This document shows positions 8,642 through 36,024 of a stretch of DNA of 41,562 nt, piece by piece. Below the pieces are notes generated by a model. That model made no database searches and was not told the DNA's origin. It was given only the letters and a program-made list of their open reading frames with translations. Each line of letters opens with the position of its first letter. Positions within the stretch are counted from its first letter, which is position 1. Source of the stretch: Clostridia bacterium (lineage in GTDB: Bacteria > Bacillota > Clostridia > UBA1212 > UBA1255). The stretch lies in the NCBI GenBank assembly GCA_017560765.1, contig JAFZEI010000106.1, positions 1 to 41,562 of the forward strand, written 5' to 3'. The position numbers and the translations under genes are program-made.

Positions 8642-10675
8642 ATGAACAGCACAAAAAAATTTATTACATCTTTATTTATACTGATTTTAGTTTCAACAAT
8701 CATAAGTCCCCTATTTGTAAATGCAGAAAATAACATAAAGCCTAATACATGGTCTTATGTTGATGGTCTTGGTCGAACAGAGAGCACGTTCGGCGAAATA
8801 CCCAAAGCCAAAGACGACCACCCGCGTTTCGTAGGAATATTCTATCATACGTGGCATACTGAGTTTTCTGTCGGCAGAACTCCCGTAAACATAACACAAG
8901 TTGTAACAGAAAATCCCGAAGCAGCAAAAAATGTTAAAGAAAATGTTTTTTGGACTCAAAATTTCGAGCGATACTATACTCCGGGATACTTTTGGAACGA
9001 ACCTTTATTTGGATATTACTCAACTTTAGATGAATATGTTTTAAGAAAACATGCAGAATTATTAGCCGATGCAGGTGTTGATTTTATTTATATAGACGGT
9101 ACAAACGGTCGCTTTTTATGGGAAAAAGGTGTAGATGCCATACTTAAGGTTTTTGCCGAAGCAAAAGCAGACGGAGTCGATGTTCCGCAAATAGTTTTTT
9201 GGCTCAGCCTTTCCGAAATAGAAAATAGAATAGCCCAATTAAGAAAATTATATACCAGATGGTATTCAAAGCCTGAATATGACGATATGTGGTTTAAATG
9301 GGAAGGTAAACCTTTAGTTCTTTGCTACAAGGATGTTTTAGAAAAAACATATAAAGACTCTGTTGAAATAAATAACATGTTTACTTTTCGCCCTATTAAT
9401 CCCTCTTATTTTAATCAAGGTAACAGCTCAGAAAAATACTGGGGTTGGCTCAGCGTGTATCCTCAATGCAAATACGGCAAAACTGCAGACGGAAGGCCTG
9501 AACAAATGGCTGTCGGCGTAGCACAAAATGCAAATTCAGATAGGTATCTTCTTACTTATATGGCTGCCGGAGAAAAAGTAATGGGAAGAAGCTTTGCAGC
9601 GCCTGATAAAGACACAGGAAAAAATTACTCATATTCTTATACTTACGGCAATGTTAAATATACTGTTGATCAAAGGAATGATTTCGCTACACTTGCAGGA
9701 CGTAATTTTCAACAGCAATGGGATTATGCCATAGAATGTGATCCTGATGTTATATTAGTTACAGGTTGGAACGAATGGACCGCGCACAGAGATTCAGGTT
9801 TTTGTGATGCCTTTACAGACGAATACAGCCGCGACACAGAGCCTACCAAAGGTTTATTAAAAGATTATTACTATTATCAGATGGTCGCAAATATCAGAAG
9901 ATATAAAGGTGTAGACAAAAACAACTACTACATAGGAAATAACAAGTCTATTGATATTTTCTCAGAAGATTTGTCGCAATGGGACTCTGTAATTTCATAT
10001 AATCACTACACAAACAGTACACGAGACAGAGATTGTGCCGGGTATAAAACACACCATTACGAAAATTTCACAATGCGCAACGATATTGTTTTGACAAAGG
10101 TTTCATATGACGATAATAATTTTTATTTTTATGTTTCAACAAAAGATACTCTTTCTCCCGAAACTGACCAAGGATGGATGAGATTATTTATCGACACAGA
10201 TTATTCCGGCAACAGTTCAAATTGGGAAGGGTTTGAGTATGTTATTAATCGAACAAATCCCGAAAACAACAAATGCACGCTCGAACGCTCTAAAGGCATG
10301 GCAGCCGACGGCAGTTGGTTGTGGGAAAAAGCAGGCGAAATTAAGTATTCCGTACAAGGAAATGTTTTGCAGCTTGAAGTACCTCAAAAATTATTAGGTT
10401 TTAAAAACGGTAAATTTGACTTTAGCTTTAAGTGGTCAGACAACATGCAAACAGACGGAGATATAATGGATTTTTATTCTAACGGAGATGTTGCTCCCGG
10501 TGGCAGATTTTGCTTTAAATTCACAAACATAATACCATCCGACAGTATAAATCCCATAATTATTGTTTCTTTGGTTTGTATGTTTTGCTCTGCTGTCTTT
10601 GTTTTCTTTAAAACATATCGAAAAGCGAAACTTGGTTTGTGTCAGGCCAACCTTCAAAGCAGCCTTCCTGTTTGA
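8642..10675 (+). CDS. Secreted GH71/GH99-like protein with CBM9-like domain and C-terminal membrane anchor
   Basis: A 677-residue surface protein. Residues 1-28 are a signal peptide. Residues about 60-425 look like a TIM-barrel of the GH71/GH99/WbsX-like type: VGIFYHTWH (64-72), HAELLADAGVDFIYIDGTNG (137-156) and VTGWNEWTAH (373-382). Residues about 430-628 resemble a CBM9/DOMON-like beta-sandwich (DDNNFYFYV, WMRLFIDTD, WEGFEYVINR, FYSNGDVAPGGRF). A hydrophobic helix (637-657) followed by basic residues should anchor it to the membrane. It is probably a glycan-active enzyme; substrate and even activity are unknown. The last 68 bases overlap the 3' end of polC on the opposite strand. Confidence 0.75.
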   Translation: MNSTKKFITSLFILILVSTIISPLFVNAENNIKPNTWSYVDGLGRTESTFGEIPKAKDDHPRFVGIFYHTWHTEFSVGRTPVNITQVVTENPEAAKNVKENVFWTQNFERYYTPGYFWNEPLFGYYSTLDEYVLRKHAELLADAGVDFIYIDGTNGRFLWEKGVDAILKVFAEAKADGVDVPQIVFWLSLSEIENRIAQLRKLYTRWYSKPEYDDMWFKWEGKPLVLCYKDVLEKTYKDSVEINNMFTFRPINPSYFNQGNSSEKYWGWLSVYPQCKYGKTADGRPEQMAVGVAQNANSDRYLLTYMAAGEKVMGRSFAAPDKDTGKNYSYSYTYGNVKYTVDQRNDFATLAGRNFQQQWDYAIECDPDVILVTGWNEWTAHRDSGFCDAFTDEYSRDTEPTKGLLKDYYYYQMVANIRRYKGVDKNNYYIGNNKSIDIFSEDLSQWDSVISYNHYTNSTRDRDCAGYKTHHYENFTMRNDIVLTKVSYDDNNFYFYVSTKDTLSPETDQGWMRLFIDTDYSGNSSNWEGFEYVINRTNPENNKCTLERSKGMAADGSWLWEKAGEIKYSVQGNVLQLEVPQKLLGFKNGKFDFSFKWSDNMQTDGDIMDFYSNGDVAPGGRFCFKFTNIIPSDSINPIIIVSLVCMFCSAVFVFFKTYRKAKLGLCQANLQSSLPV

Positions 10676-13600
10676 GTGTTTCTAAAACAGCTTTATTTAC
10701 ACCTGCGCTAAGTTGAAGGTCTTCTATAGATAGGAACGTATCGCCTTTTTCTAGGCGTTTGTTTCTTTCTGTTACAATATTCATTGCCGCTGCACCGCCT
10801 ACACCTTGAAAAGCTGCAATAGGCGGTCTTATTTTGCCGTTTTCCGGTTTAAAGAAAGTTGCATCGGATTTATAAATATCTACAGGTAAAAATTCAATTC
10901 CGCGAGCATACATTTCTACAAGAAGATTATACAAAGCGGCCTGAGCCTTGTCTTTTGCACTCATTTCACCTTTTTTAACATTTGCTTCGCCTGAATCTTC
11001 ACCGTTCTCTTCTACATCAACATCTGCAATATCACTGTTGATTAAATTAAGGACAGCCATTCTTCCATACATTCTGTCCAATCCGTGAATCATTGACGCT
11101 CCGTCAAAATCATCTATTTTCATAGAAAAGCGTGCCGCATAATAAGCTACCGGCTCATAAAGCTTATACCAAGCTATCCTGAGAGACAAAGTTACATATG
11201 CCACAGCATGTGCCTTAGGGAACATGTATTTTATCTTTTTACAAGAATCTATATACCACTCGGGAACATCATGTTCTCTCATGGCACTCTCCCACTCAGG
11301 TTTTAGGCCTTTTCCTTTTCGCACTGCCTCCATTATATCAAAAGACATTTTCTTTTCGAGATTTTTATTGATAAGATAAAGCATTATATCATCACGACAA
11401 CATATCGCTTGAGACAAAGTACAAGTACCCTCAGCAATAAGTGTTTGCGCATTTCCGTTCCAAACATCCGTACCGTGAGACAGTCCGGAAATACGCACAA
11501 GCTCCGATATAGTGGACGGTCTAGTTTCCATAAGCATCTTTGTAACAAAGCCCGTTCCCATTTCAGGAATTCCAAGCGTTCCCAAAGGAATAGGTTTTTT
11601 AAGCAACTCATTATTAAGCTCCAAAGCATCAGATGAGTTAAACAGTGACAACATTTTGCTGTCATTTATATCTACGGTAAGACTGTTGATTCCGGTATAT
11701 TCTTCAAGCAACTTAAGCATCGCCGGACCTTCGTGACCGAGAATATCAAGTTTAAGAATGTTATCATGGAGAAAATGATAGTCAAAATGCGTTGTTATCG
11801 TATCTGAATTTTCTTTCTCTGCCGGATGCTGAACAGGTGTAAAATCATAAATTTCTTTATCTCGCGGAATAACAATAATACCACCGGGGTGTTGTCCTGT
11901 GGTCTTACGCACTCCCTCAAAACCACTGGCGAGACGGTTTATTTCCGCATTGGAAACTTGCTTACCCCTCTCCTGTAAGTATTTTATTACATATCCTCTT
12001 GCCGATTTATCTGCAAGACCTGCTATAGTGCCGGCGCGGAACACTTTTCCCTTACCAAAAAGCACCTCTGTGTATTTATGTGCATTCGCTTGATCTTCTG
12101 ATGCAAAGTTAAGGTCAATATCAGGTACTTTGTCTCCCTTAAATCCTAAAAAAGTTTCAAACGGAATATCATAGCCATCTCTTGTCAGCACAGCGCCGCA
12201 ATTGGGGCAGTTTTTTTCCGGCATATCAAAGCCACAGTCGTAGCCTTCATTTTCGTGAAATTCATAGTATCCGCATTTTGTGCATCTGTAATGAGCAGGC
12301 AGCGAGTTTACCTCTGTAATACCGGCCATAAAAGCAGCAACAGAAGAACCTACCGAACCTCTGGAGCCAACCTGGTAACCGTTTCTGGCAGACTCTGCCA
12401 CAAGTTCTTTAGCTGTAATATACATGATGGAATAGCCATTACTTATAATAGAATTCAGCTCTTTTTCCAGACGTGCCTCTACAAGTTCAGGGAGGTTTTC
12501 ACCGTAAATAGAGCGCGCCTTTTCGTAGCAGCTCGTTCTAAGCGTCTCATCCGAGCCTTCAATCACCGGAGGATAAAAACCATCCGGCACAGGTCGTATT
12601 ACTTCTATCTCGTCGGAAATTTTGCGCGTATTTTCTACAACTACCTCATAAGCTCGCTCTCCCAAATAATCAAACTCTGCCAGCATTTCTTCTGTGGTTC
12701 TCAAATATAGAGGCGGCTGTGTATCTGCATCACTGAAACCTTGAGCAGCCTGCAATACAGTTCTGTATATGGCGTCTTCAGGATTAAGGAAATGAACGTC
12801 ACACGTAGCAACTGTCATTTTGCCGAGATTATCTCCAAGTTCAACAATTTTATTGTTAATTGCCTTGACAGCATCAAGACTTTCAACCTCGCCGTTTCTT
12901 ACAAGGTACATATCGTTTTCTAAGGGTTGAATTTCAAGATAGTCATAAAAAGATGCAATTTGCAAGAGCCTTTCTTCTGATTCACCGTGCAAAACAGCAT
13001 CAAAAAGCTCGCCCTCCGAGCAAGCACTGCCTATAATAAGCCCCTCTCTGTGCGCCTCAATTTCGAATCTCGGCATTCTTGGACGTTTGTGATAATAATT
13101 CAAATTTGAAAGCGAAATCAGTTTATATAGATTTTTAAGTCCTACAAGATTTTTTACCAAAATAATACAATGCCATGTAGGAAGCTTTTTAGCTTGCTCG
13201 TTTGTCATCTCCGGCGTGCGGTCACAGAGATAGCATTCACATCCGTAAATCAGCTTAAGCACATCAGGATTACCTCTGCCGCTGACATTTTTCATAGAAT
13301 TAAACATATCGGGATAAGCTTGTGCCGTACCGTGGTCAGTAATTGCCACTGCATCATGTCCCCAATTTGCCAGCTGTTTAACCAAATCAGAAGGACGTGT
13401 AAGACCGTCTTGAGCACTCATATTTGTATGCAAATGAAGCTCTACACGTTTAACAGAGGCATTATCTTTTCTGAAAACAGGCTTGTATTCCGAAATACTC
13501 CTCGCCATTATAGTAAGCTCTTTTGTAAATTTATCCTGAGATGCCTGACCGTATACTGTAATATATTTACCCTCTTTGAATGTGCTTTTAACAAATTTTA

Positions 13601-14285
13601 AATCAAATTCGTCAAAAAAGAATTTCGCTACAACAGAGTATGTGTTATCTGTCATTTCAAGCATTGCGATATACGAGCCACTGGGAATTTGCTTGTCTTC
13701 GTATTTAAAAATCTTTCCCGACACCGCAACAAAGCCGGAATCTGCATCTATATCAGACATTTTGCTTATTACGCTGTCAATTTCTCTGCCCATGTAAATG
13801 GTATTGCCTTTAGAGTCTTTTTTTAACTCTTCCCCCTCATCCGGTGTAAGCTTTTTCTTTTTGGAATACTTGCCGTCTCCTTTGTTTGTATATTCTCCTC
13901 CGTTTTTGCGCTGATACGTGCCTCCGCCATAACCTCCGCCTCCGGAATTTTTCATGTTTTGTGCTGCTTGACGAATACTTTCTCTTTGAGCCTCTTCATA
14001 TTGCTCTATACTAAACGGAATCTCCACCACTTCTGTTGGTGCTTCTTCGAAAAAGGGCACTTCCTCCGGCAAAGGAGCATCATCCGGACAAGATTCTACA
14101 GCACCTAAATTTATATCAAAGACATTAATATTTATTTCTAAATTAACAGAGCTGTCAGCTTTTAATTTTTTGCGCCAAATTTGCTCCAGCGAAGAAAGCT
14201 CTTCACTATTTAATTCTTTATCATTTTCAAAGGAAAGTATAATTTTCTTTTCTTCGTTATATATCTTTGCAGAAATAATTTTCAT
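10608..14285 (-). CDS. polC: PolC-type DNA polymerase III alpha subunit lacking the exonuclease insertion
   Basis: The 1225-residue replicative polymerase. Order: short N-terminal domain (1-60), acidic then Gly-rich linker (65-160), OB domain (about 165-270), PHP domain (280-500), Zn knuckle (Cys668, 671, 684, 693, 696), palm with PDIDLNF (Asp722, Asp724) and KLDILG (Asp847), and a C-terminal beta-clamp motif NQVSLFDMF. B. subtilis PolC is 1437 residues; the difference equals the roughly 200-residue DEDDh proofreading exonuclease normally inserted in PHP. Here YGCECYL (348-353) runs almost directly into WHCIILVKN (371-379), with no DxE exonuclease motif. PHP keeps HLH, DH, E, H, C and DVH ligands. 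GGGGG precedes the ATG. Convergent with the secreted gene. Confidence 0.95.
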   Translation of the reverse strand: MKIISAKIYNEEKKIILSFENDKELNSEELSSLEQIWRKKLKADSSVNLEININVFDINLGAVESCPDDAPLPEEVPFFEEAPTEVVEIPFSIEQYEEAQRESIRQAAQNMKNSGGGGYGGGTYQRKNGGEYTNKGDGKYSKKKKLTPDEGEELKKDSKGNTIYMGREIDSVISKMSDIDADSGFVAVSGKIFKYEDKQIPSGSYIAMLEMTDNTYSVVAKFFFDEFDLKFVKSTFKEGKYITVYGQASQDKFTKELTIMARSISEYKPVFRKDNASVKRVELHLHTNMSAQDGLTRPSDLVKQLANWGHDAVAITDHGTAQAYPDMFNSMKNVSGRGNPDVLKLIYGCECYLCDRTPEMTNEQAKKLPTWHCIILVKNLVGLKNLYKLISLSNLNYYHKRPRMPRFEIEAHREGLIIGSACSEGELFDAVLHGESEERLLQIASFYDYLEIQPLENDMYLVRNGEVESLDAVKAINNKIVELGDNLGKMTVATCDVHFLNPEDAIYRTVLQAAQGFSDADTQPPLYLRTTEEMLAEFDYLGERAYEVVVENTRKISDEIEVIRPVPDGFYPPVIEGSDETLRTSCYEKARSIYGENLPELVEARLEKELNSIISNGYSIMYITAKELVAESARNGYQVGSRGSVGSSVAAFMAGITEVNSLPAHYRCTKCGYYEFHENEGYDCGFDMPEKNCPNCGAVLTRDGYDIPFETFLGFKGDKVPDIDLNFASEDQANAHKYTEVLFGKGKVFRAGTIAGLADKSARGYVIKYLQERGKQVSNAEINRLASGFEGVRKTTGQHPGGIIVIPRDKEIYDFTPVQHPAEKENSDTITTHFDYHFLHDNILKLDILGHEGPAMLKLLEEYTGINSLTVDINDSKMLSLFNSSDALELNNELLKKPIPLGTLGIPEMGTGFVTKMLMETRPSTISELVRISGLSHGTDVWNGNAQTLIAEGTCTLSQAICCRDDIMLYLINKNLEKKMSFDIMEAVRKGKGLKPEWESAMREHDVPEWYIDSCKKIKYMFPKAHAVAYVTLSLRIAWYKLYEPVAYYAARFSMKIDDFDGASMIHGLDRMYGRMAVLNLINSDIADVDVEENGEDSGEANVKKGEMSAKDKAQAALYNLLVEMYARGIEFLPVDIYKSDATFFKPENGKIRPPIAAFQGVGGAAAMNIVTERNKRLEKGDTFLSIEDLQLSAGVNKAVLETLKQEGCFEGWPDTNQVSLFDMF

Positions 14286-23704: not shown

Positions 23705-24661
23705 TCAGTCTTCTTTTTTAAGTGAAAGTCCGAGAGATTCCAATTTTTGGATAACTTCCTCTAAAGACTTTCTGCCGAGGTTACGAACCTTCATCATTTC
23801 TTCTTCTGTTTTTTCAGCCAAATCACCGACTGTATTAACAGAAGCACGTTTTAAGCAATTGTATGAACGTACTGAAAGATCAAGGTCTTCGATATTCATT
23901 TCCAATATCTTCTCTGTTTTACCTGAAACATCCTTTTCAACAACTACGTGTTTAATTTCTTTCTCTTCATCGAAGTGAGTGAAAAGTTCAAACTGCTCTA
24001 TTAAGATTTTAGCACTCTCGCATATTGCCTCGTCAGGAGACATGGCTCCGTTTGTCCAAACCTCAAGAGTAAGTTTATCGTAGTCCGTTACATTTCCCAC
24101 ACGCGTATTTTCTACATAATAGTTTACCTTCGGTACAGGTGAGAAAAGTGAATCGATGGGAATAACACCGAAAGGCATATTAGGAATCTTATTTTTATCT
24201 GCAGACCTCCAACCCTTTGATGTACCAACCTCCATCTCTATTGAAAGTTCAGCTTCACCATTTAAGGTTGCAATGTGCTGATCAGGATTAAGAACCTCAA
24301 CATCTGAATCACATACGATATCAGCTGCAGTAACAACACCTCTGTCAGACTTTAAAATACTAACAGTCTTTGTCTCTGTCAAATCCTCAGCTAATACTTT
24401 AAATGCAACCTGCTTAATATTTAAAATGATTTCGGTTACATCCTCAACAACACCGGGTATTGATGTGAACTCATGACAAGCACCTTTAATTTTTACATTC
24501 ATCGCTGCAGAGCCCGGTAATGATGAAAGAAGTATTCTTCTGAGTGAATTTCCCAATGTCGTGCCGTATCCTCTTTCAAGGGGTTCTATAACGAATTTAC
24601 CGTATCTACCGGATTCGTCTGATGCCACACATTCCATTCTTGGCTTTTCAATTTCAATCAC
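23705..24661 (-). CDS. rpoA: RNA polymerase alpha subunit
   Basis: A 318-residue core RNA polymerase subunit. The N-terminal dimerisation domain (about 1-230) contains [20 protein letters not shown]; the C-terminal domain (about 250-318) has [19 protein letters not shown] and [11 protein letters not shown], which bind UP elements and activators. The start is a GTG at 24661 with AAGGAGGG seven bases upstream. Between rpsD and rplQ, as expected. Confidence 0.98.
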
Positions 24662-24699
24662 AATATTCCCTCCTTGGAATCTAAATACTAACGGCGAAA

Positions 24700-25332
24700 T
24701 TATTTACTATACAACTCGACGATCAAGTGCTCCATTACAGGTAAATCAATATCTTCACGCTTCGGATATGTTAAAACTGTTCCCTGCATTTTATCTGCAT
24801 CATATGAGAGCCATTCGGGAACTGAACGTCCGCTTGTTACGTCAAGAATTTCGTTGATTCTGGAGTTTGACTTGCTCTTCTCACATACAGCAATAACGTC
24901 ATTAGCAGAGATAAGATATGAAGGAATATTTACTCTCTTACCGTTAACTGTGAAATGTCCGTGAAGAACGAGCTGTCTCGCTTCTGCTCTTGATGAACCA
25001 AGACCGAGACGATAAACAACATTATCAAGTCTTCTTTCAAGCAATATCAAAAGGTTTTCACCTGTTACACCGCTCTTTTTGTTTGCCATTTCAAAGTAAG
25101 TATGGAATTGTTTCTCCAATACACCGTAATATCTCTTAGTTTTTTGTTTTTCTCTAAGCTGCATGCAATATTCTGACTGTTTTTTCTTAGCCTGTCCGTG
25201 TTGTCCGGGTGCATAGCTTCTCTTAGGTCTTGACATTGCACACTTCTCTGTATAACATCTTGTGCCTTTCAGAAAAAGCTTCTCGCCTTCTCTTCTGCAA
25301 ATTCTACATGATGCTTCACTATATCTGGCCAT
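24700..25332 (-). CDS. rpsD: 30S ribosomal protein S4, zinc-binding (C+) form
   Basis: A 210-residue primary 16S rRNA-binding protein that nucleates 30S assembly. Cys9, Cys12, Cys26 and Cys31 form a four-Cys zinc site at the N-terminus, marking the C+ variant; then PGQHG, and the S4 RNA-binding domain [28 protein letters not shown] precedes the ATG. It lies in the alpha operon here rather than as a separate monocistronic gene as in B. subtilis. Confidence 0.97.
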
Positions 25333-25350
25333 TCTTAATACCTCCGTTAA

Positions 25351-25749
25351 TTAAACTCTACGTCTCTTGGGCGGTCTGCATCCGTTATGCGGAATAGGAG
25401 TCTCGTCCTTAATTAATGTAACATCGAGTCCTGCTACTTGCAGTGCTCTGATTGCTGACTCACGGCCTGCTCCGGGACCTCTAACGTAAACCTCTACAGA
25501 TTTAAGACCATGCTCCATAGCAGCTTTTGCAGCTGTTTCTGCTGCAGACTGAGCTGCGAAAGGAGTACTCTTCTTTGAGCCACGGAAACCGAGTCCACCG
25601 GCACTTGCCCAAGAAATAGCATTACCGGACTTATCAGTAATAGTAACAATTGTATTATTGAAGGTTGAGCGAATATGTGCCTGACCAAATTCAATAAATT
25701 TACGTTCTCTTCTTCTACCTTTTACAGTTTTTTTGGTTTTAACAGCCAT
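25351..25749 (-). CDS. rpsK: 30S ribosomal protein S11
   Basis: A 132-residue platform protein of the small subunit. [38 protein letters not shown] and the C-terminal [13 protein letters not shown] are canonical. GGAGG lies before the ATG at 25749. It is 13 bases downstream of rpsM and 18 bases before rpsD. Confidence 0.98.
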
Positions 25750-25762
25750 AACTCAAACCTCC

Positions 25763-26131
25763 TTATTTCTTCTTGCCTGCTATAGGTCTAGCGGGACCTT
25801 TTCTCGTTCTGGCATTAGTTTTTGTTCTCTGGCCTCTAACGGGAAGTCCCATCTTATGACGTCTGCCTCTATAGCAACCAATTTCCATAAGACGCTTAAT
25901 GTTGAGGGAAACTTCTCTACGTACGTCACCTTCAACAACATATTCTTTATCTATGATATCTCTTAACTTACCAACCTCATCGTCAGTTAAGTCTCTAACT
26001 CTTGTGTCTGGATTGATACCGGTTTTAGCAAGAATTTCACTTGCTGTTGTTCTACCTATACCGTAAATGTATGTCAATCCGATTTCAACACGCTTCTCTC
26101 TCGGCAAGTCAACACCTGCAATACGAGCCAT
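25763..26131 (-). CDS. rpsM: 30S ribosomal protein S13
   Basis: A 122-residue head protein contacting the P-site tRNA and the L5 bridge. The sequence [20 protein letters not shown], a helix-hairpin-helix region ([20 protein letters not shown]) and the basic C-terminus are canonical. I start at the ATG at 26131, giving MARIAGV; a GTG 12 bases upstream overlaps the GGAGG site. A long, structured 196-base spacer separates it from rpmJ, which is unusual in this tight cluster. Confidence 0.97.
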
Positions 26132-26213
26132 TCGAAAATACACCTCCGTAAAAATTTGGCTTTTAATTCTTTAGCCTTACAACATAAATATTATAAAATC
26201 TATATACAACATC

Positions 26214-26264
26214 CCAAAGCTCATGTTAATCATGCAGCCGCACTTTGGAACGATTATAATCGTT
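26214..26264 (-). ncRNA. Candidate structured RNA element in the rpmJ-rpsM spacer
   Basis: Read as mRNA (minus strand), a perfect 16-base palindrome (AACGATTATAATCGTT, 26249-26264, able to form a 6-bp stem with a TATA loop) is followed directly by a bulged hairpin (26214-26248). In that hairpin CCAAA pairs TTTGG, GCT pairs AGC and CATG pairs CATG around an ATTAA loop, with bulges only on the 5' side. There is no U-run after it, so it is not a terminator. It could be a protein-binding leader or a processing site; no known r-protein leader was recognised. Confidence 0.4.
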
Positions 26265-26327
26265 TGCTTCTACGCTAACCTTTAGAATTGAATATTCAAA
26301 GACTTTACGAGAAGCCCAACAAGCAAA

Positions 26328-26444
26328 TTAACCTTGCTTTTGCTTATGCTTAGGATAAGCATCACATATAACCATTACTTTGCCTTTTCTCTTTATAACT
26401 TTGCACTTATCGCAAATAGGTTTAACTGACGGTCTAACTTTCAT
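26328..26444 (-). CDS. rpmJ: 50S ribosomal protein L36
   Basis: A 38-residue protein, [20 protein letters not shown] and onward, ending KHKQKQG. The zinc ligands are Cys11, Cys14, Cys27 and His33, so it is the C+ form. GGAGG lies upstream of the ATG at 26444. It sits between infA and rpsM as in other Firmicutes. Confidence 0.97.
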
Positions 26445-26458
26445 GGTACAATCCTCCT

Positions 26459-26674
26459 TCACTTTCTCCAAATGATTCGACCACGGTCTAAATCATATGG
26501 GGACAACTCCAGGGTAACATGGTCACCCTTCACAATTCTAATATAATTTGTTCTAAGCTTGCCTGAAATATGGGCAACCACCATATGCCCATTTGCAAGT
26601 TCTACCTTAAAAACACAGTTGGGCAACACTTCGGCTATAACGCCTTCAACTTCAATTAAGTCTTCTTTTGACAA
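26459..26674 (-). CDS. infA: Translation initiation factor IF-1
   Basis: A 71-residue OB-fold factor binding the 30S A site. [22 protein letters not shown] and the C-terminal [15 protein letters not shown] are canonical. The start is a TTG at 26674 with AAGGAGG eight bases upstream. It lies between map and rpmJ. Confidence 0.97.
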
Positions 26675-26687
26675 GATGTCAACCTCC

Positions 26688-27449
26688 TTAAAGTGTTACG
26701 ATTAACGGCTCATCTTCTGTTACGATAACAGTGTTCTCGTAATGAGCTGACAGTTTGCCGTCCTTCGTGTATACTGTCCATTTGTTGCTGCCGAGCAATA
26801 TCTCATCACTGCCCTGGTTAACCATAGGCTCAATGGCTATTGCCATACCGGCCGCGAGACGATGTCCTCGCCGGTTTGTTCTGTAATTAGGAACCTCAGG
26901 ATCCTCATGGAGATCTCTGCCAATGCCGTGTCCTGTATATTCCTTTACAATCGAATAACCAAAGGATGATACATAATCCTCTATCGCACCTGAGATATCA
27001 GACACTCTGTTATTCGGTTTAACAAACTTAAGACCTTCAAAAAAGCTTTGCTTTGTAACTTCTATAAGTTGCAAAGCTTCTTCTGAAACCTTACCCACGG
27101 GAAAAGTACGAGCCGCATCTCCATGAAAACCATTATAATAAGCACCAACATCAACGCTTAATATATCGCCCTCTTTAAGTTTGCGATCGTCCGGAATACC
27201 GTGAATAACTTCTCCGTTCACAGAAGCACATATCGCTCCGGGGAACTTTATGCCTCCGTAGTAATTAGGCACACCTAAAAACGACGGAAAAGCGCCACTC
27301 CTTATTATATAGTTTGTGGCGATTCTGTCAAGCTCTTTTGTCGTAATTCCCGGAAAAATATTTTTTTCTATCTCCCCAAGAACTTCTGATACAATCTTAC
27401 CGGAAGCTTTCATCTTTTCGATTTCCGATTTTGATTTAATATTTATCAT
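26688..27449 (-). CDS. map: Methionine aminopeptidase, type I
   Basis: A 253-residue metalloenzyme removing the initiator Met. Ligands appear in [18 protein letters not shown] (two Asp), [16 protein letters not shown] (His), AIEPM (Glu) and [11 protein letters not shown] (Glu). [15 protein letters not shown]-type sequence precedes them. AAAGGAA lies 9 bases before the ATG. Four bases downstream of adk. No KOW-domain protein is present between map and infA, unlike some clostridia. Confidence 0.97.
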
Positions 27450-27453
27450 AATT

Positions 27454-28104
27454 TCAGATTCCTTTTAAACCTAACGCATACAATGTATTCTGTAAAGATT
27501 CTTCAATAGAATTTTCGCTGCGTACGTTCATGAGGTTTCCCTTATGTCTGTAAAACTCAACCAGCGGTTCAGTCTTTTTGTGATATGCAGCAATTCTGTT
27601 TCTTATTACATCAGGTTTATCATCTTCGCGATGCACCAATTGAGCACCACACTTTTTGCAGATATTATCCTCCGCCGGATTAAACTCCAAATGATAAGTT
27701 TCTCCGCATACCGGACAAACAATTCTTTTTGAGAGTCGGTTAATTACTACCTCATCATCAATTACAATGTTTACTACCCTGTCAATCTTCCTGCCGGATG
27801 CATTAAGAATTTCTTCAAGCATTTCGGCCTGGGCAATTGTTCTGGGAAAACCGTCAAGTATAAAACCATTTTCACAGTCAGCCTGTTCAATGCGATCCTT
27901 CACGATTTGTACGGTAACTTCATCGGGAACTAATTCACCCTTAGAAATATACGTATCTGCTAATTTGCCGAGTTCTGTATTTCTGCGGATGTTATCTCTG
28001 AAGATTTCACCGGTGGAGATATGAGGAATCTTTAATATTGCTGATAATCCGGTTGCCTGAGTGCCCTTTCCGGCACCGGGCGCACCCAATAATATTAAGT
28101 TCAT
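27454..28104 (-). CDS. adk: Adenylate kinase with zinc-binding lid
   Basis: A 216-residue enzyme balancing AMP, ADP and ATP. P-loop GAPGAGKGTQ (7-16), ISTGEIFR, ILDGFPRT (82-89), and a Cys4 zinc site in the lid (Cys130, 133, 149, 152), the long Gram-positive form. GGTGGAGG precedes the ATG at 28104. Located between secY and map. Confidence 0.98.
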   Translation of the reverse strand: MNLILLGAPGAGKGTQATGLSAILKIPHISTGEIFRDNIRRNTELGKLADTYISKGELVPDEVTVQIVKDRIEQADCENGFILDGFPRTIAQAEMLEEILNASGRKIDRVVNIVIDDEVVINRLSKRIVCPVCGETYHLEFNPAEDNICKKCGAQLVHREDDKPDVIRNRIAAYHKKTEPLVEFYRHKGNLMNVRSENSIEESLQNTLYALGLKGI

Positions 28105-28127
28105 CTCACTACCTCCACCAAGTGTTA

Positions 28128-29468
28128 TTAATCCAAGAATCCTTTGTAGTTTCTCATAAGAAGTTGTGACTCCAACTGACGAACAGTTTCAAGAGCAACA
28201 CCTACGAGAATTAACACGGTTGTACCACCGAACCAAAGATTGATGCTTGCTATATCCGCACTGAAGTATGAAATAATCTTCTGGATAAGTGACGGAGCAA
28301 CAGCAAGAATTGCAAGGAACATAGCACCAAACCAAGTTACTCTTGTAGATGCCTTCTTGATATATTCTGCTGTAGGAGCACCTGGTCTGAGGCCGGGAAC
28401 AAAGCCGCCATTCTTTTTTAAGTTATTGGCAATATCTACCGGATCAAAGTATACAATATTATAGAAGAATGTAAATCCAACAATAAGAAGTGCATATACT
28501 ATAATATATCCCCAACCTTGTCCTTGAGAGAAGCTGTTAATGAATCCTGTAAATCCTGTTGTGCTGGAAGATTTTCCGATGAAAGCTACGATTGTTGCAG
28601 GGAACTGTAACATTGACATAGCAAAGATAATAGGAAGAACTCCTGAAGAGTTAACCTTAATCGGAATGTTGGTATTTTGTCCACCATAAACTTTTCTTCC
28701 TACAACTCTTTTTGCATATTGTACAGGAATACGACGCTCGCCGCCTTCTACCCAAACAACAGCCAATATAACTGCGAGGAATACAACAAGAATAGCAACA
28801 ACATATATTATTCTTACAGGTAATACAGATGTAATTGAATTACCTACAATAATGTTATACAACATCAATGCAGCACTTGGAGCACCTGCTACGATACCTG
28901 CAAAGATAATCATTGATATACCGTTACCGATTCCTGTCTCTGTAATCTTTTCTCCCAACCACATAAGAACTGATGTACCTGCTGTGAATGAAAGAACAAC
29001 CAACAAGAATGAGAAAATATCAAATTCGCCATTTGCAGCGAAAAGATTAAGAATAGCTCCTGATCCTTTGATATTAAAATACATCATCACTGATTGGAAC
29101 ACGGCCAAAATAAGTGTTGTTATTTTAGTAACCATGCTAAGCTTCTTTCTTCCCTCAGGTCCTTCTTTTTGCCATCTCTCAAAAATCGGAATAGCAACTG
29201 TAAGGAGCTGAACAATAATTGAAGCATTGATGTATGGGCTGATTGTCATAGCAAACAGTGAAACCTGTTGGAATGCACCGCCTGAAAGCATATCGTACAA
29301 TCTGAACATTCCGTTGTTTGCCAGCTCACTGAAAGCACCTTCAGTGAGACCGGGAACAGGGATAAAACATCCTACTCTGAAAATGATTATTAGCAAAAGT
29401 GTCATGAATAATTTTTTTCTTAACTCTTTTACATGAAAAGCGTTAATGATGATGTCTTTAAACTTCAT
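28128..29468 (-). CDS. secY: Preprotein translocase subunit SecY
   Basis: A 446-residue, ten-helix protein-conducting channel. IFRVGCFIPVPG, SGGAFQQVSLFAMTISPYINA, WLGEKITETGIGNGISMIIFAG (plug/lateral gate) and PVQYAKRVVGRK (ribosome-binding loop) are typical. The GAGGTG site overlaps the end of rplO and the genes are 1 base apart. Length is near the usual 430-440. Confidence 0.98.
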   Translation of the reverse strand: MKFKDIIINAFHVKELRKKLFMTLLLIIIFRVGCFIPVPGLTEGAFSELANNGMFRLYDMLSGGAFQQVSLFAMTISPYINASIIVQLLTVAIPIFERWQKEGPEGRKKLSMVTKITTLILAVFQSVMMYFNIKGSGAILNLFAANGEFDIFSFLLVVLSFTAGTSVLMWLGEKITETGIGNGISMIIFAGIVAGAPSAALMLYNIIVGNSITSVLPVRIIYVVAILVVFLAVILAVVWVEGGERRIPVQYAKRVVGRKVYGGQNTNIPIKVNSSGVLPIIFAMSMLQFPATIVAFIGKSSSTTGFTGFINSFSQGQGWGYIIVYALLIVGFTFFYNIVYFDPVDIANNLKKNGGFVPGLRPGAPTAEYIKKASTRVTWFGAMFLAILAVAPSLIQKIISYFSADIASINLWFGGTTVLILVGVALETVRQLESQLLMRNYKGFLD

Positions 29469-29469
29469 C

Positions 29470-29913
29470 TTAGATCACCTCTGCCTTTCCTCCTGCTTTT
29501 TCAATTTTTTCGGATGCACTCTTTGTAAAGCAAGTAGCTTTAACTGTAAGATTTTTTGTCAATTCACCGTTACCGAGAATTTTCACTCCGTCATACAGCT
29601 TATTGATAAGACCTGCTTCTGCCAATACAGCAGCATCAATTACGGCACCATCTTCAAAAACGTCAAGAGCAGAAACATTAACCTCTGCATAAACATTTGC
29701 AAAGTTTTTATTGTTAAAGCCTCTCTTAGGCATTCTTCTGTACAAAGGTGTCTGTCCACCTTCAAAGCCCGGTCTTACTCCGCCGCCTGAGCGTGCTTTC
29801 TGACCTTTGTGTCCTCTACCGGCCGTTTTTCCGTTACCGGATCCGTGACCTCTGCCTTTTCTGTATGCTTCGCGGCTTGAACCAGCCGCAGGACGTAATT
29901 CGTCAAGCTTCAT
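29470..29913 (-). CDS. rplO: 50S ribosomal protein L15
   Basis: A 147-residue 23S rRNA-binding protein. [20 protein letters not shown] then [20 protein letters not shown] is the classic Gly/Arg/Lys-rich N-terminus. GGAGG precedes the ATG. Between rpmD and secY. Confidence 0.98.
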
Positions 29914-29926
29914 GGTAACACCTCCG

Positions 29927-30106
29927 TTATATTTCTTCTACTTTAACGAGATGAGCTACTACCTTTATCATACCTCTGACTGCAGGTGTGTCATCGCGCT
30001 CTACAAAGCTGCCGATCTTTTTAAGACCTAATGCAGTAACTGTAGATTTTTGATTCTTAATTACACTGTTCGTACTTTTTGTAAGAGTAATTTTCAATTT
30101 AGCCAT
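29927..30106 (-). CDS. rpmD: 50S ribosomal protein L30
   Basis: A 59-residue protein beginning [20 protein letters not shown], followed by [11 protein letters not shown] and [13 protein letters not shown], all typical of bacterial L30. GGAGG lies before the ATG at 30106. It is 13 bases downstream of rpsE and 13 bases before rplO. Confidence 0.97.
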
Positions 30107-30120
30107 TGTTAATTTCCTCC

Positions 30121-30621
30121 TTATTCAAGTATCTCGTCAACAGATTTGCCACGAAGTTTTGCAACTTTTTCTACTGTTGTAAGTGTGCTGAGTGCATCGA
30201 TTGTGGCACGTACCATGTTGATAGGATTGTTTGAACGAAGTGATTTTGTTCTGATATCACGAATTCCTGAAAGCTCAATAACGGCTCTGACAGGTCCTCC
30301 GGCAATAACTCCGGTACCTTCTGCAGCCGGCTTAAGAAGAACTTCGCCTGCACCAAACTTACCTACAATCTCGTGAGGAATTGTTGTGCCAACCATCGGA
30401 ACTGTGATGATGTTTTTCTTCGCATCCTCAACGCCTTTTCTGATAGCTTCTGTTACTTCGGCAGCTTTACCGAGACCAACGCCAACTTGACCGTTTTCGT
30501 TGCCTACTACTACCAAAGCACTCCATCTGAAGTTACGACCGCCTTTTACAACCTTTGTAACTTTGCCGAGGTTTACGACTTTCTCTTTAAATTCTGGTGT
30601 ATTAGAATTATTATGTTCCAT
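30121..30621 (-). CDS. rpsE: 30S ribosomal protein S5
   Basis: A 166-residue protein involved in fidelity and mRNA entry. [37 protein letters not shown], and [17 protein letters not shown] are canonical. AAGGAGG lies upstream of the ATG. Located between rplR and rpmD. Confidence 0.98.
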
Positions 30622-30640
30622 AGTATATCCTCCTTACGCC

Positions 30641-31009
30641 TTAGAAATTGAGGCCTGCTTCACGAGCAGCGTCAGCAAGTTCTTTTACTCTACCGTGGTA
30701 TACATAACCGCCGCGGTCAAATACCACTGTTGTGATTCCTGCAGCAAGAGCTTTTTCAGCAACGAGCTTACCAACCTCTTTAGCAGCCTCGATGTTACCG
30801 CCATGTGCAATCTTGTCTTTAATTGCACTGTCAAGCGTAGACGCAGACACCAAAGTATTTCCTGTTGTATCATCTATAACTTGAGCATAGATGTTGGAAA
30901 GACTTCTGAATACATTCAATCTCGGACGTTCAGGTGTTCCGCTGATATGTTTTCTGACACGGATGTGTCTTCTCTGTCGAATCTGATTTTTACTTAATTT
31001 CTTTGCCAT
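30641..31009 (-). CDS. rplR: 50S ribosomal protein L18
   Basis: A 122-residue 5S rRNA-binding protein. [34 protein letters not shown] and the C-terminal [20 protein letters not shown] are canonical. GGGAG precedes the ATG. 18 bases after rplF. Confidence 0.98.
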
Positions 31010-31027
31010 ATTGCGTCACTCCCTTTC

Positions 31028-31573
31028 TTACTTCTTAGCACCGGTCTTGCCTTCTTTACGTCTGACAACTTCGTCAACGTACTTAATACCTTTGCCCTTA
31101 TATGGCTCCGGCGGCTTTTTGCTTCTAACTTTAGCAGCAAATTCTCCAACCATCTGCTTGTTGATTCCTTTGATTATGATCTTTGTCTGAGTAGGAACTT
31201 CTACTGTAATTCCCTCAGGAGGAACCATATCAATTTGGTGTGAAAAACCAACATTGAGCACGAGAGTTTTGCCTTGAAGAGCAGCTCTGTAACCTACACC
31301 GTTGATTTCAAGCTCTTTAACATAGCCTTTTGTTACACCGTCAACCATATTCTGAATGAGAGATCTTGTAAGACCGTGAAGTGAACGGTACTCTTTCTCA
31401 TCTGAGCTGCGTGAAACAACTACCTGGCCTGCTTCGACACTGATGTCGATGTTTGAATTAAATGTTTCTGTAAGGGTTCCTTTTTCGCCCTTTACCTGTA
31501 AAGTATTTCCTTCGAGAAGTTCTACTGTAACTCCCGCTGGGATAACAACAGGTTTTTTTCCAATTCTGGACAT
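31028..31573 (-). CDS. rplF: 50S ribosomal protein L6
   Basis: A 181-residue protein near the sarcin-ricin loop and factor site. [20 protein letters not shown], the [20 protein letters not shown] block and C-terminal [16 protein letters not shown] are canonical. TTGGAGG lies before the ATG. The spacer upstream holds a strong hairpin (31600-31624). Confidence 0.98.
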
Positions 31574-31599
31574 TGTTTTTCCTCCAATCTTAAGATTCT

Positions 31600-31624
31600 G
31601 TACGGCTTTTGTTTAAAGCCGTAC
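31600..31624 (-). promoter_or_regulatory. Perfect 10-bp hairpin in the rpsH-rplF spacer
   Basis: GTACGGCTTT and AAAGCCGTAC form a perfect 10-bp stem with a 5-base loop, 27 bases upstream of the rplF start. On the mRNA strand it is followed by AGAATC, not a U-run, so it is not a simple terminator. It could be an RNase III-like processing site or a translational control element. Confidence 0.55.
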
Positions 31625-31642
31625 TTTTCAGATTTATTAATA

Positions 31643-32041
31643 TTACCAAATGTAAGCCATTACTTCTCCGCCGATGCCAAGCTTTCTAGCTTTCTTATCA
31701 GTCATAATACCTTTAGAAGTAGAAATAACTGCTACACCGAGACCGCCAAGAACCTTCGGAAGCTCATCCTTAGATGCATAAATACGAAGACCGGGCTTTG
31801 AAATTCTCTTTATACCGGAAATAACAGGTTTCTTGTTTTCTGTATACTTCAAGTAAATTCTAATAACGCCCTGCTTGCCGTCATCTATAATCTGTACTTC
31901 CTTTACGTAACCTTCTTCTACAAGAATTTGAGCAATAGCATTCTTAACATTTGAAGCCGGTACATCAACCGTTTCATGTTTTGCTGTGCCCGCATTTCTG
32001 ATACGTGTCAACATATCAGCTATAACGTCAGTAATTTGCAT
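31643..32041 (-). CDS. rpsH: 30S ribosomal protein S8
   Basis: A 132-residue 16S rRNA-binding protein of the central domain. [37 protein letters not shown] and the C-terminal [20 protein letters not shown] are canonical. GGAGG lies before the ATG. In E. coli S8 represses the spc operon; a comparable site is not evident in rplE here, but a hairpin lies just downstream of this gene. Confidence 0.98.
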
Positions 32042-32067
32042 TGTGCCAACCTCCTTTATTCAATCCA

Positions 32068-32253
32068 TTACCAGCTGGCTTTTTTAACGCCGGGAATTTG
32101 TCCCTTGTAAGCCAATTCTCTGAAGCAAATACGGCATATACCGTATTTTCTGATATATGCATGAGGACGTCCGCAGATTTTGCATCTGTTATATGCTCTC
32201 GTAGAATACTTAGGTGTCCTTTGTTGCTTAACCTTCATTGAAACCTTTGCCAT
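32068..32253 (-). CDS. rpsN: 30S ribosomal protein S14, type Z
   Basis: A 61-residue zinc-binding S14. The ligands are CKIC and CRIC ([20 protein letters not shown]), marking the C+ type Z form. The C-terminus [11 protein letters not shown] is canonical. GGAGG precedes the ATG. Between rplE and rpsH. Confidence 0.98.
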
Positions 32254-32267
32254 GGTCTACCTCCTTA

Positions 32268-32807
32268 TTACGAGTTGAAGGGCATACCCATCAATTTGAG
32301 CAGCGCTTTTGCTTCTTCATCAGTTTTTGCTGTAGTTACAAATATAACATCCATACCTCTTACCTTGTCGATTTTATCATATTCGATTTCAGGGAAGATA
32401 ATCTGCTCTTTGATACCCATAGCATAGTTACCTCTGCCGTCAAAAGAATTTCCGGGAATACCGTGGAAGTCTCTGATACGGGGCAATGTTATGTTGATGA
32501 GCTTATCAGCAAAAGCGTACATTCTTGTACCTCTGAGTGTAACCTTACAACCAATGTTCATGCCTTCACGAACCTTGAATGCAGCAACAGATTTCTTTGC
32601 CTTTGTAACAACAGGTTTTTGTCCTGTTATTAAGCTAAGGTCATTAACAGCATTTTCCACTGCCTTAGGATTCTCTTTAACTTCGCCCAATCCCATGTTA
32701 ATAACAATCTTTTCAAGCTTAGGGATTTCCATAACGCTCTTGTATTTGAACTGTTCCATAAGAGCGGGTGCTATTTCCTTGTCATATTTTTCTTTTAATC
32801 TTAACAT
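32268..32807 (-). CDS. rplE: 50S ribosomal protein L5
   Basis: A 179-residue 5S rRNA-binding protein forming a bridge to S13. Features [56 protein letters not shown] and [25 protein letters not shown] lies before the ATG at 32807. 19 bases after rplX. Confidence 0.98.
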
Positions 32808-32826
32808 TATTATAGCCTCCCTCTAA

Positions 32827-33201
32827 TCACTTTGTGTAATCAACTGTCGGAATTACAGCGCCGCAATCTTCTCTCTTACAAAAACGAACTTTAATTGATT
32901 TGCCGTTTTCTTCAATTGTCTTGTGGCCTGTTCTTGTAGGCTGTCCGCACTTAGGGCAAACAACCATTACATTAGAAACATGGATAGGAGCTTCTGTTTT
33001 TACAATACCGCCCTGTTCTGTACGACCCTTGGGTTTCTTGTGTTTGCTGACCATGTTATAACCCTCTACGATTACTTGCTCCTTCTCAGGAATAACCGCG
33101 AGTACTTTTCCGGTAACAGTCTTCGGTTTACCGTTTTTGTCTTTTTGGCGGCGAGTATTGAGAACAACTACTTTGTCGCCTTTTTTAATATTCATACTCA
33201 T
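32827..33201 (-). CDS. rplX: 50S ribosomal protein L24 with zinc-ribbon-like C-terminus
   Basis: A 124-residue assembly-initiator protein at the exit-tunnel rim (usual length about 103). The KOW core (IKKGDKVVVLNTRRQKDKNG) and KHKKPKGRTEQGGIVKTEAP are canonical. After VSNVMVV come Cys82, Cys85, Cys108 and Cys113 (CPKCG ... CKREDCG), which should form a zinc ribbon absent from B. subtilis or E. coli L24, then a short tail. CGGAGG lies 8 bases before the ATG. Confidence 0.96.
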   Translation of the reverse strand: MSMNIKKGDKVVVLNTRRQKDKNGKPKTVTGKVLAVIPEKEQVIVEGYNMVSKHKKPKGRTEQGGIVKTEAPIHVSNVMVVCPKCGQPTRTGHKTIEENGKSIKVRFCKREDCGAVIPTVDYTK

Positions 33202-33216
33202 AATATTATCCTCCGA

Positions 33217-33585
33217 TCAAAGTACTTCGGGAGCAAGTGATACGATCTTCATAAAGTCGTTATCTCTAAGCTCTCTTGCTACAGGTCCAAAAATACGTGT
33301 ACCTCTTGGATTGAGGTCATCTTTTATAAGAACAGCTGCATTTTCGTCGAATCTGATATATGTGCCGTCTTCGCGACGTACGCCTCTTTTTGTACGTACA
33401 ATAACGCATTTAACAACGTCACCTTTTTTAACTATACCGCCCGGAGCAGCAGCCTTAACGGAGCAGATGATAATATCACCGATATTAGCATAACGACGCT
33501 TACTGCCGCCGATAACCTTAATACACATCAATTCTTTAGCACCGGTATTGTCTGCTACTTTGAGTCTAGTTTGTACTTGTACCAT
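33217..33585 (-). CDS. rplN: 50S ribosomal protein L14
   Basis: A 122-residue protein at the subunit interface. [40 protein letters not shown] and [20 protein letters not shown] are canonical. TAGGAGG precedes the ATG. Opens the spc segment, with no break visible after rpsQ. Confidence 0.98.
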
Positions 33586-33605
33586 AACTTTTACCTCCTA
33601 TGTGC

Positions 33606-33863
33606 TTAACGAGCCTTCTCGATGATAGAAGCAAGTCTCCAGCGTTTATCTTTACTTAAAGGTCTTGTTTCCATAACCTCTACAGTATCGCCTACTTTAG
33701 CTTCGTTTGCTTCGTCGTGAGCCTTTAATTTATATGTGGTTTTAACAACTTTCTTATAAAGAGGATGCTTTACGCTGTCAACAACTGCAACAACGATTGT
33801 CTTATCCATCTTATCGCTGATAACCTTACCAACTCTGGTTTTTCTTAAGTTTCTCTCTACCAA
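33606..33863 (-). CDS. rpsQ: 30S ribosomal protein S17
   Basis: An 85-residue OB-fold protein. [40 protein letters not shown] and the terminal [20 protein letters not shown] are canonical. The start is a TTG at 33863 with AAGGAGG upstream. Confidence 0.97.
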
Positions 33864-33889
33864 ATTAAACTACCTCCTTCCGAAGCCTA

Positions 33890-34105
33890 TCACTGCTGGC
33901 CTTCAGCAATCTCTTTTGCTCTGATTGCTGTTTTAACTCTTGCAATATCACGCTTTAAGAATCTCAATTTCATAGGGTTTTCAATTGGGCTTGTTGCATT
34001 CTTAAAACGAAGTCTGAAGAGCTCCTCTTTCAAGTTTGCTTCTTCTTTCTTTAATTCTTCAAGTGACATTTTATTTAAGTTTTCCTTAAATTCTTTAGCC
34101 TTCAT
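33890..34105 (-). CDS. rpmC: 50S ribosomal protein L29
   Basis: A 71-residue two-helix protein at the exit-tunnel rim. [20 protein letters not shown] and the C-terminal [20 protein letters not shown] are canonical. GGAGGG lies before the ATG; the start lies inside the end of rplP (11-base overlap). Confidence 0.97.
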
Positions 34106-34535
34106 TTACATCACCCTCCGTTTCAACTTTTTCGCGTGCAATTACTTTACACTTAACAGGAAGCTTATGCATTGCAAGACGAAGCGCCTCTCTGCAAGCC
34201 TCTTCACTTACACCTGCAACCTCAAAAAGAACTCTGCCGGGTTTAACAACTGCAACCCAATACTCAGGAGAACCTTTACCGGAACCCATTCGAACCTCTG
34301 CAGGTTTCTTTGTTACCGGTTTGTCAGGGAAGATTTTAATCCAAACCTTACCGCCTCTTTTGATAGAACGTGTAAGAGCAATACGGGCAGCCTCAATCTG
34401 ATTACTTGTAATCCAGCCGCATTCAGTTGCCTGAAGACCGAACTCACCATGTGAAATCACGTTGCCTCTTGTGGCAGTACCTTTCATTCTGCCTCTTTGC
34501 ACTTTTCTGTGCTTAACTCTTTTAGGCATTAACAT
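34095..34535 (-). CDS. rplP: 50S ribosomal protein L16
   Basis: A 146-residue protein contacting the A-site t[23 protein letters not shown], the [20 protein letters not shown] block, [20 protein letters not shown] and [20 protein letters not shown] are canonical. The start at 34535 gives the usual MLMPKRVK N-terminus; GGGAG within the end of rpsC is the likely ribosome-binding site. Confidence 0.98.
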
Positions 34536-34537
34536 AA

Positions 34538-35209
34538 TTATTTCTCGCTCCCTTCTGAATTAGCCTTGTCGGCTTTGATAGCAGGAAGTACTTCTCCTTT
34601 ATAAATCCAAACTTTAACACCGATTTTACCGTAAGTTGTATTTGCTTCTGCAAATCCGTAATCAATATCGGCTCTGATTGTCTGGAGCGGAATTGTTCCC
34701 TCGTGATAATGTTCTGTACGTGCGATTTCCGCACCGCCAAGTCTACCGCTGCATGCAGTCTTGATACCTAAAGCACCGGAACGCATTGTGCGCTGCATAA
34801 CTTGCTTCATTGCTCTACGGAATGTTACACGCTTTTCTAACTGGCTTGCAATATTCTCAGCGCAAAGTTGTGCGTCCATATCTTGATTTTTGATTTCGAG
34901 AACGTTGATAGAAACAATTTTGCCTGTCATCTTCTCGAGTTCAGCTTTAAGTTCGTCTTTAACCGCACCGCTCTTACCGATTACAAAACCGGGTTTAGCT
35001 GTTTCGATATTAAGAAGAAGCTTGTTAGCTGTTCTTTCGATTTTAATTTTGGAAATTCCGGCACTGTAAAGTTTGTTCTTTACATAAGTTCTTACTTTGT
35101 TATCTTCGATAAGATAATCTGCAAAGTTCTTCTTATTTGCATACCATTTAGAATCCCAATCTTTAATAACTCCGACTCTAAGTCCGTGAGGATTAACTTT
35201 TTGTCCCAT
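34538..35209 (-). CDS. rpsC: 30S ribosomal protein S3
   Basis: A 223-residue protein at the mRNA entry site. [20 protein letters not shown], the KH-type [20 protein letters not shown] and the C-terminal [20 protein letters not shown] are canonical. I start at the ATG at 35209 with GGAGG six bases upstream; an in-frame TTG two codons earlier is less likely. Confidence 0.97.
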
Positions 35210-35224
35210 GTTCAACCTCCTCCA

Positions 35225-35701
35225 TTAATCTCTTTCTTTTAATACAACCGTAATGTGGCTTGTTTTCTTGTTAATGCGTGTTCCACGACCTCTTGCAACT
35301 GCGCGCATTCTCTTAAGAGTGGGGCCCTGATTTGCAAAACAATCAGCTACATAAAGCTTTTCACTGTCGAGTTCAAAGTTGTTCACTGCATTTGCTTCTG
35401 CAGAATGGAGCAACTTGTAAATCAACTCTGAAGCAGCTTTTGGTGTAAATTTAACGATAGCATATGCTTCAGCGAGATCTTTACCTTTGATAAGATCAAG
35501 AACGATCTTAACTTTTCTGGGAGAAATTCTTGCATAATTCAATGTAGCTTTTCCCTGATCTCTTCCGATACCCAGCACTTTGCGCTCACGCTTTGAAAGA
35601 ATAAAAGGTTTATTACTCTGACGTGACTGGGAGTTATATTTTTCGATGAGCTCTTCTCTTCTTGAGAGAAGCTCTGATTCACTCATAATTTTTCTTTCCA
35701 A
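35225..35701 (-). CDS. rplV: 50S ribosomal protein L22 with N-terminal extension
   Basis: A 158-residue protein lining the exit tunnel; typical L22 is about 110. The canonical part starts near residue 48 (KATLNYARISPRKVKIVLDL) and ends RGTRINKKTSHITVVLKERD, with the beta-hairpin region LKRMRAVARGRG. The first 45 or so residues are an extra charged segment (SRREELIEKYNSQSRQSNKP, then RERKVLGIGRDQ). The TTG at 35701 is the best start, because AAAGGAGG lies 8 bases upstream; an ATG at 35686 has only a weak site and would still leave most of the extension. Confidence 0.95.
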   Translation of the reverse strand: MERKIMSESELLSRREELIEKYNSQSRQSNKPFILSKRERKVLGIGRDQGKATLNYARISPRKVKIVLDLIKGKDLAEAYAIVKFTPKAASELIYKLLHSAEANAVNNFELDSEKLYVADCFANQGPTLKRMRAVARGRGTRINKKTSHITVVLKERD

Positions 35702-35720
35702 GAGATATTCCTCCTTTTTA

Positions 35721-36005: not shown

Positions 36006-36024
36006 TTAGACAACCTCCTTAAGA

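Follow-up and report, generated by a model that had tools for sequence, protein, structure and literature searches.

PolC replicases that lack a DEDDh exonuclease have been described before. According to the survey by Timinskas et al. (2013, PMC3919608), exonuclease-less PolCs of Clostridia and Negativicutes, which are paired with DnaE1, have the same OB, PHP, polymerase and helix-hairpin-helix (HhH) regions as the enzyme presented here and contain no DEDDh insert. They are treated there as PolC variants, they make up 6% of PolCs and 16% of DnaE1-paired PolCs, and nearly all of them come from these two groups. The same text had already raised the possibility of proofreading by the PHP domain in PolC and DnaE1 enzymes with a conserved site. 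The native PolC of Geobacillus kaustophilus contains a DEDDh insert, has Asn at the position that is D496 in our protein and, with one PHP ligand mutated, displays no PHP exonuclease activity (PMC5636811). In Mycobacterium tuberculosis DnaE1 the exonuclease is abolished by D23N or D226N, both residues being metal-coordinating; a loop beside the PHP site lines the DNA path in this enzyme and holds the DEDD insert in the G. kaustophilus PolC (PMC5636811). Our literature search found no assay of an exonuclease-less PolC and no PHP exonuclease activity in any PolC, the activity being proven in DnaE enzymes.

The PolC analysed here does not differ in kind from those of the 2013 survey (PMC3919608). 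The elements that we did not find in the accessible portions of PMC3919608 and of a more recent survey (PMC12926913) are the genome-wide absence of DEDDh proteins, the number of changes in exonuclease state, the pattern of exclusion between a missing exonuclease and a broken PHP site, and the argument drawn from the loop. The frequency of the variant, about half of the PolC-bearing genomes in our phylum sample, is also new.

Architecture and fold of the window PolC

The window is the whole stretch of DNA that was analysed, 41,562 nucleotides long; it forms contig 101 of an assembly of 2.19 Mb that is 96% complete. Among named records, those closest to the assembly are MAGs from gut and rumen that carry the label Oscillospiraceae or Clostridia. 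The polC gene is a minus-strand ORF, 10608-14285(-), whose 1225-aa product is an exonuclease-less PolC with the following features.

13728..14285, minus strand: N-terminal region, residues 1-186; AlphaFold2 pLDDT under 50 over much of its length, Gly-rich
13491..13727, minus strand: OB fold, residues 187-265; PF01336 below cut-off, co-linear with 3F2B, strands in the model
12621..13448, minus strand: PHP domain, approximately residues 280-555; PF02811 at 104 bits, alignment with M. tuberculosis and Taq DnaE, pLDDT mostly 84-98
13173..13235, minus strand: loop of 21 residues that links ligands E350 and H372, the DEDDh insertion site in other PolCs
11106..12608, minus strand: polymerase core (thumb, palm, fingers), approximately residues 560-1060, with catalytic D722, D724 and D847; PF07733, PF17657
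12198..12284, minus strand: zinc knuckle, CTKC 668 to CPNC 693-696; aligned with 3F2B
10647..10901, minus strand: helix-hairpin-helix region, residues 1129-1213; PF14579
10620..10634, minus strand: C-terminal clamp-binding motif QVSLF, residues 1218-1222; motif search

The ORF, its strand and length and the motifs named in the original prediction were all re-located in the sequence (HLHT 284, YGCECY 347, WHCIIL 371, C422, TCDVHF 494, CTKC 668, CPNC 693, D722/D724/D847 and QVSLFDMF 1218). The protein scores above both PolC equivalog cut-offs, with 1387 bits for NF001688 (cut-off 873) and 1259 bits for TIGR01405 (cut-off 1043). A Pfam search recovers domains for PHP, polymerase, fingers and HhH, together with a weak OB-fold match below cut-off, and detects no RNase_T (DEDDh) domain in the protein. 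The hallmarks of a PolC are in place, namely an OB fold before the PHP domain (its match lying below the Pfam cut-off), the zinc knuckle, the HhH region and the C-terminal clamp motif; the hallmark that is missing is the DEDDh insert, about 209 aa, since only 18 residues separate columns 353 and 371 as against 201-217 in exonuclease-bearing PolCs. The original prediction of an absent exonuclease is borne out by this gap, and its view of an intact rather than decayed gene is supported as well. The catalytic residues form a DDD triad that is present in all PolCs checked. The statement of the original prediction that no DxE motif occurs elsewhere in the protein was not strictly correct: examples are a DKE in IPRDKEIYDF and a DVE in ADVDVEENG, but no such motif is part of an exonuclease domain.

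An AlphaFold2 model of residues 26-1225, built with 44 sequences, has a mean pLDDT of 84.8, with the PHP blocks mostly at 84-98. Foldseek returns the Geobacillus kaustophilus PolC 3F2B as its top match (TM 0.96 by target length, 2.5 A), and the comparison suggested by the original prediction reveals the same fold and domain order. At the sequence level, the alignment with 3F2B proceeds from residue 175 to the C-terminal end with no large gaps (1014 bits). 3F2B was crystallised as a construct with the exonuclease deleted, with which both the alignment and PMC3919608 are consistent. As for a two-part N-terminal domain, the region is mostly of low confidence in the model and may correspond to a reduced PolC NTD.

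A convergent ORF, 8642-10675(+), shares 68 bases at its 3' end with the 3' end of polC. Genes for ribosomal proteins, secY and rpoA lie about 10 kb away, at 23705-36858 of the window, and no rimP-nusA pair was seen among the scanned neighbours of polC.

PHP site and proofreading capacity of the genome

The ligand set of the PHP site comprises H284, H286, D293, H318, E350, H372, C422, D496 and H498, all nine of which are present and conform to the PHP-proofreading pattern HHDHEH[C/H]DH. The original prediction was right that the site is complete; it had included D317, a residue that is conserved, yet lies outside the nine on the alignment with the M. tuberculosis and Taq DnaE enzymes. We assign the third position to D293 because it aligns with the metal-coordinating D23 of M. 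tuberculosis DnaE1, and D226 of that enzyme corresponds to D496. M. tuberculosis DnaE1 shares the nine ligands and has, between the fifth and the sixth, a loop whose length is of the same order (PMC5636811). This spacing spans 12-39 residues where the insert is lacking, and measures 21 residues in the window PolC and 20 in the DnaE1 of the same genome. The mycobacterial protein is a DnaE whose PHP activity has been proven (PMC5636811), whereas for the window PolC we infer it.

How might such an enzyme correct its errors? PHP-based proofreading is the best reading for the window PolC, and we hold it to be probable. The lineage would have lost the DEDDh exonuclease seated in the PHP loop. The PHP domain retains all nine ligands that make up the trinuclear metal site, and without the insert the loop measures 21 residues, a length found in DnaE enzymes, where this loop borders the route taken by the primer end. 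A mispaired 3' end might then leave the palm and enter the PHP pocket of PolC or, when DnaE1 extends, the PHP pocket of DnaE1, where a metal-dependent 3'-5' exonuclease would trim it in the manner of M. tuberculosis DnaE1. By analogy with the latter, the PHP domain of PolC would be catalytically active and would itself do the proofreading.

The genome (G000) encodes one full-length PolC and one DnaE1 with an intact PHP site, and its PolC belongs with the exonuclease-less kind from Clostridia, having no insert and coming from a Clostridia genome that also contains DnaE1. No second full-length PolC, exonuclease-bearing or otherwise, was found in the genome. Apart from DnaE1, the search returned, on contig 26 (L004:799-1980), a PolC fragment of 393 aa that covers the thumb, the zinc knuckle and part of the palm and in which the catalytic DxD is replaced (PDFSLRI). 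Distant fragments of this type also occur in G013, G023 and G011.

A search for PF00929 (DEDDh/RNase_T) proteins gave no match in this genome even at E<=10, and 13 of 14 control genomes did give one. The absence is notable because stand-alone DnaQ homologues average more than three per proteome in the NAR 2026 survey (PMC12926913). A DnaQ/epsilon subunit acting in trans presupposes a DEDDh protein somewhere in the genome, and the separate exonuclease that the original prediction had offered as its second option finds no candidate there at this threshold.

Distribution and history of the exonuclease insert

The insert is absent from all PolCs of the genus, the family and the order in which the region is covered, and polC was found in every searched relative of the order. 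Since the same architecture recurs at all three levels, a mis-assembly does not account for the missing insert, and artefact or chance is ruled out. Within the family, 15/16 genomes are devoid of a DEDDh protein. In the class, match extents and DEDDh matches identify exonuclease-less PolC in 61 genomes among 393. No DEDDh protein is found in 41/61 of these, which are drawn from four separate exonuclease-less clades; this tally counts G006 as DEDDh-free, though another search found one weak DEDDh-like protein there. The absence in these genomes and in that of the window renders a DnaQ acting in trans unlikely for them. In a sample of 219 genomes from the phylum, about 80 of 159 PolCs, or roughly half, are exonuclease-less by match extent, and 24 of those approximately 80 have been verified by alignment. 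In the class of G588, 0/60 region-covering matches are exonuclease-less. We see these numbers as an update of extent and not as a contradiction of the earlier 6%, because the sampling differs. Two genomes contain additional copies: G286 has two exonuclease-less PolCs, and G009 has, besides a normal PolC, a second divergent exonuclease-less PolC-like ORF of 773 aa (L183:4617-6935) whose PHP ligands look partly altered.

A nuclease of a different fold, or a DEDDh protein too divergent for the RNase_T profile, might proofread for PolC. A highly divergent DEDDh protein may escape the profile, as illustrated by G006, matched in one search and not in another, and some exonuclease-less genomes do keep a stand-alone DEDDh protein (279 aa in G036, 215 aa in G019, and the g11 genomes). 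The proteins present elsewhere are, however, of several unlike kinds, and the blank search at E<=10 in our genome, together with the 41 DEDDh-free class genomes, makes such a hidden proofreader improbable. The idea that the stand-alone proteins all descend from a relocated PolC exonuclease is unsupported, as they are scattered on long branches.

Trees of PolC were built without the exonuclease columns. A tree of 134 PolCs implies six changes of exonuclease state in the class, every one of which is imposed by branches with good support, and a wider tree of 202 PolCs requires 14 changes, 10 of them forced. The method does not separate gain from loss. In exonuclease-bearing PolCs the insert always occupies the same site, is nearly constant in length at 201-217 aa and has diverged in parallel with the remainder of the protein (Mantel r 0.72); for these reasons a single insertion followed by many losses is favoured, and the changes were presumably losses rather than gains.

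The state of the PHP site can be set beside that of the exonuclease. All nine ligands are intact in 96/96 exonuclease-less PolCs and in 92/106 exonuclease-bearing ones, including 61/61 of a first, mostly Clostridia set; the remaining 14/106 have a broken site, in every case through D496 to N, the counterpart of the inactivating D226N in M. tuberculosis DnaE1. No sampled PolC lacks both an exonuclease and an intact PHP site (Fisher p ~1e-4, with relatedness ignored). This exclusion is suggestive and not conclusive, because the PolC tree shows only about three origins of the broken state. The original prediction had remarked on Asn in place of D496 in B. subtilis PolC, and Asn does occur in 3F2B and in those 14 exonuclease-bearing proteins; Asp is ordinary in Clostridia with or without the exonuclease, so that D496 was rejected as a mark of exonuclease loss. 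The shift of proofreading to the PHP domain, which the original prediction had proposed, is still the best explanation, but the intact ligands and D496 given as its reason do not discriminate, most exonuclease-bearing PolCs sharing the ligands. From this sharing it also follows that the PHP domain was probably functional before the exonuclease was lost. The ratio of PHP to polymerase rates is 1.25 in exonuclease-less and 1.29 in exonuclease-bearing PolCs; neither stronger nor weaker constraint is seen after the loss, and this similarity does not point to any new selection acting on the domain. Intact ligands alone are no proof of a transfer of function, because exonuclease-bearing Clostridia PolCs are equally intact and the rate is unchanged. 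The data fit a scenario in which an old, probably active PHP site became the sole proofreader when the exonuclease was lost, and not one in which a function was newly acquired.

Equal constraint with and without the exonuclease is also what one would expect if the PHP domain were structural in both. PolC would then proofread no more, and fidelity would come from base selection and mismatch repair, or from an exchange of PolC with DnaE1, the PHP domain of which would proofread in trans. DnaE1 with an intact PHP site is indeed present here and in the other exonuclease-less genomes tested (35 in all), and in Bacillus subtilis DnaE3 is complemented in trans by the DnaQ domain that PolC carries, according to PMC12926913. 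However, structure does not need all nine ligands: exonuclease-bearing PolCs with Asn at D496 fold and work, and yet every one of the 96 exonuclease-less proteins retains Asp. We regard a purely structural PHP domain as unlikely, though a more serious contender than a hidden nuclease.

A third alternative reduces PolC to an accessory role, with DnaE1 as the main replicase and proofreading by PolC unneeded. The ratio of PolC to DnaE1 branch lengths, 0.76 in exonuclease-less and 0.61 in exonuclease-bearing lineages with overlapping intervals, gives a weak signal in this direction, and some class-mates are entirely without a PolC polymerase. Demotion is nevertheless unsupported, because in the exonuclease-less lineages the rate of evolution of PolC is still below that of DnaE1; moreover, PolC has its catalytic residues, its zinc knuckle and its clamp motif in place and the gene is found in every searched relative of the order. 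We consider it very improbable, the least credible of the three.

What does PHP-based proofreading imply beyond this genome? In several separate Bacillota lineages, among them that of the window, the DEDDh fold may be gone, as far as the RNase_T profile can tell, with the PHP sites of PolC and DnaE1 as sole replicative proofreaders and the exonuclease dispensable only where the PHP site is intact. If true, this would amount to PHP-only proofreading in a PolC-based replisome; the chances that this wider proposition holds seem to us evenly balanced. Exonuclease-less PolCs in DEDDh-free genomes are natural cases in which the PHP domain of PolC can be tested alone, and the many changes of exonuclease state allow closely related organisms with and without the insert to be compared in pairs for mutation rate or fidelity.

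A PolC-like remnant in genomes without PolC polymerase

The mirror image of the window PolC is found in 18 class genomes from five families (f11, f67, f82, f85 and f90), which have no PolC polymerase match and contain a PolC-like remnant protein (loci L321-L338, in G035, G177, G117, G069, G256, G368, G269, G284, G138, G341, G381, G355, G327, G209, G299, G407, G225 and G193). The remnant, most often 508-520 aa long, consists of a PolC-like NTD, an OB fold and a DEDDh exonuclease, with no PHP domain and no polymerase. Homology links its N-terminal part with the NTD-OB region of PolC (hhalign 98.4%, E 8e-15), the best structural match of its model is the full-length PolC 9qpc, and the exonuclease is intact in 18/18. 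A clamp-like motif of QxxLF type lies between the OB fold and the exonuclease in 16/18. A profile of the N-terminal part found no match in the PDB, and no description of the remnant turned up in our literature search or in the available text of the surveys PMC3919608 and PMC12926913.

The gene is placed after rseP or ispG and before rimP-nusA, names that were read from the translations with no database search. This is presumably the usual place of polC, and the remnant looks to be sitting at the polC locus. The remnant may have arisen from PolC by deletion or may be a separate, older form, its exonuclease domains being placed outside the PolC ones in the tree. As a hypothesis, we put the remnant forward as a candidate stand-alone proofreading subunit for DnaE1.

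Seven other genomes of the class sample have no PolC match at E<=1e-60. Five of them, G064 and G134 (f40), G237, G169 and G263, have no remnant match, and the other two, G292 and G320, contain small stand-alone DEDDh proteins; all seven are possible further losses of PolC.
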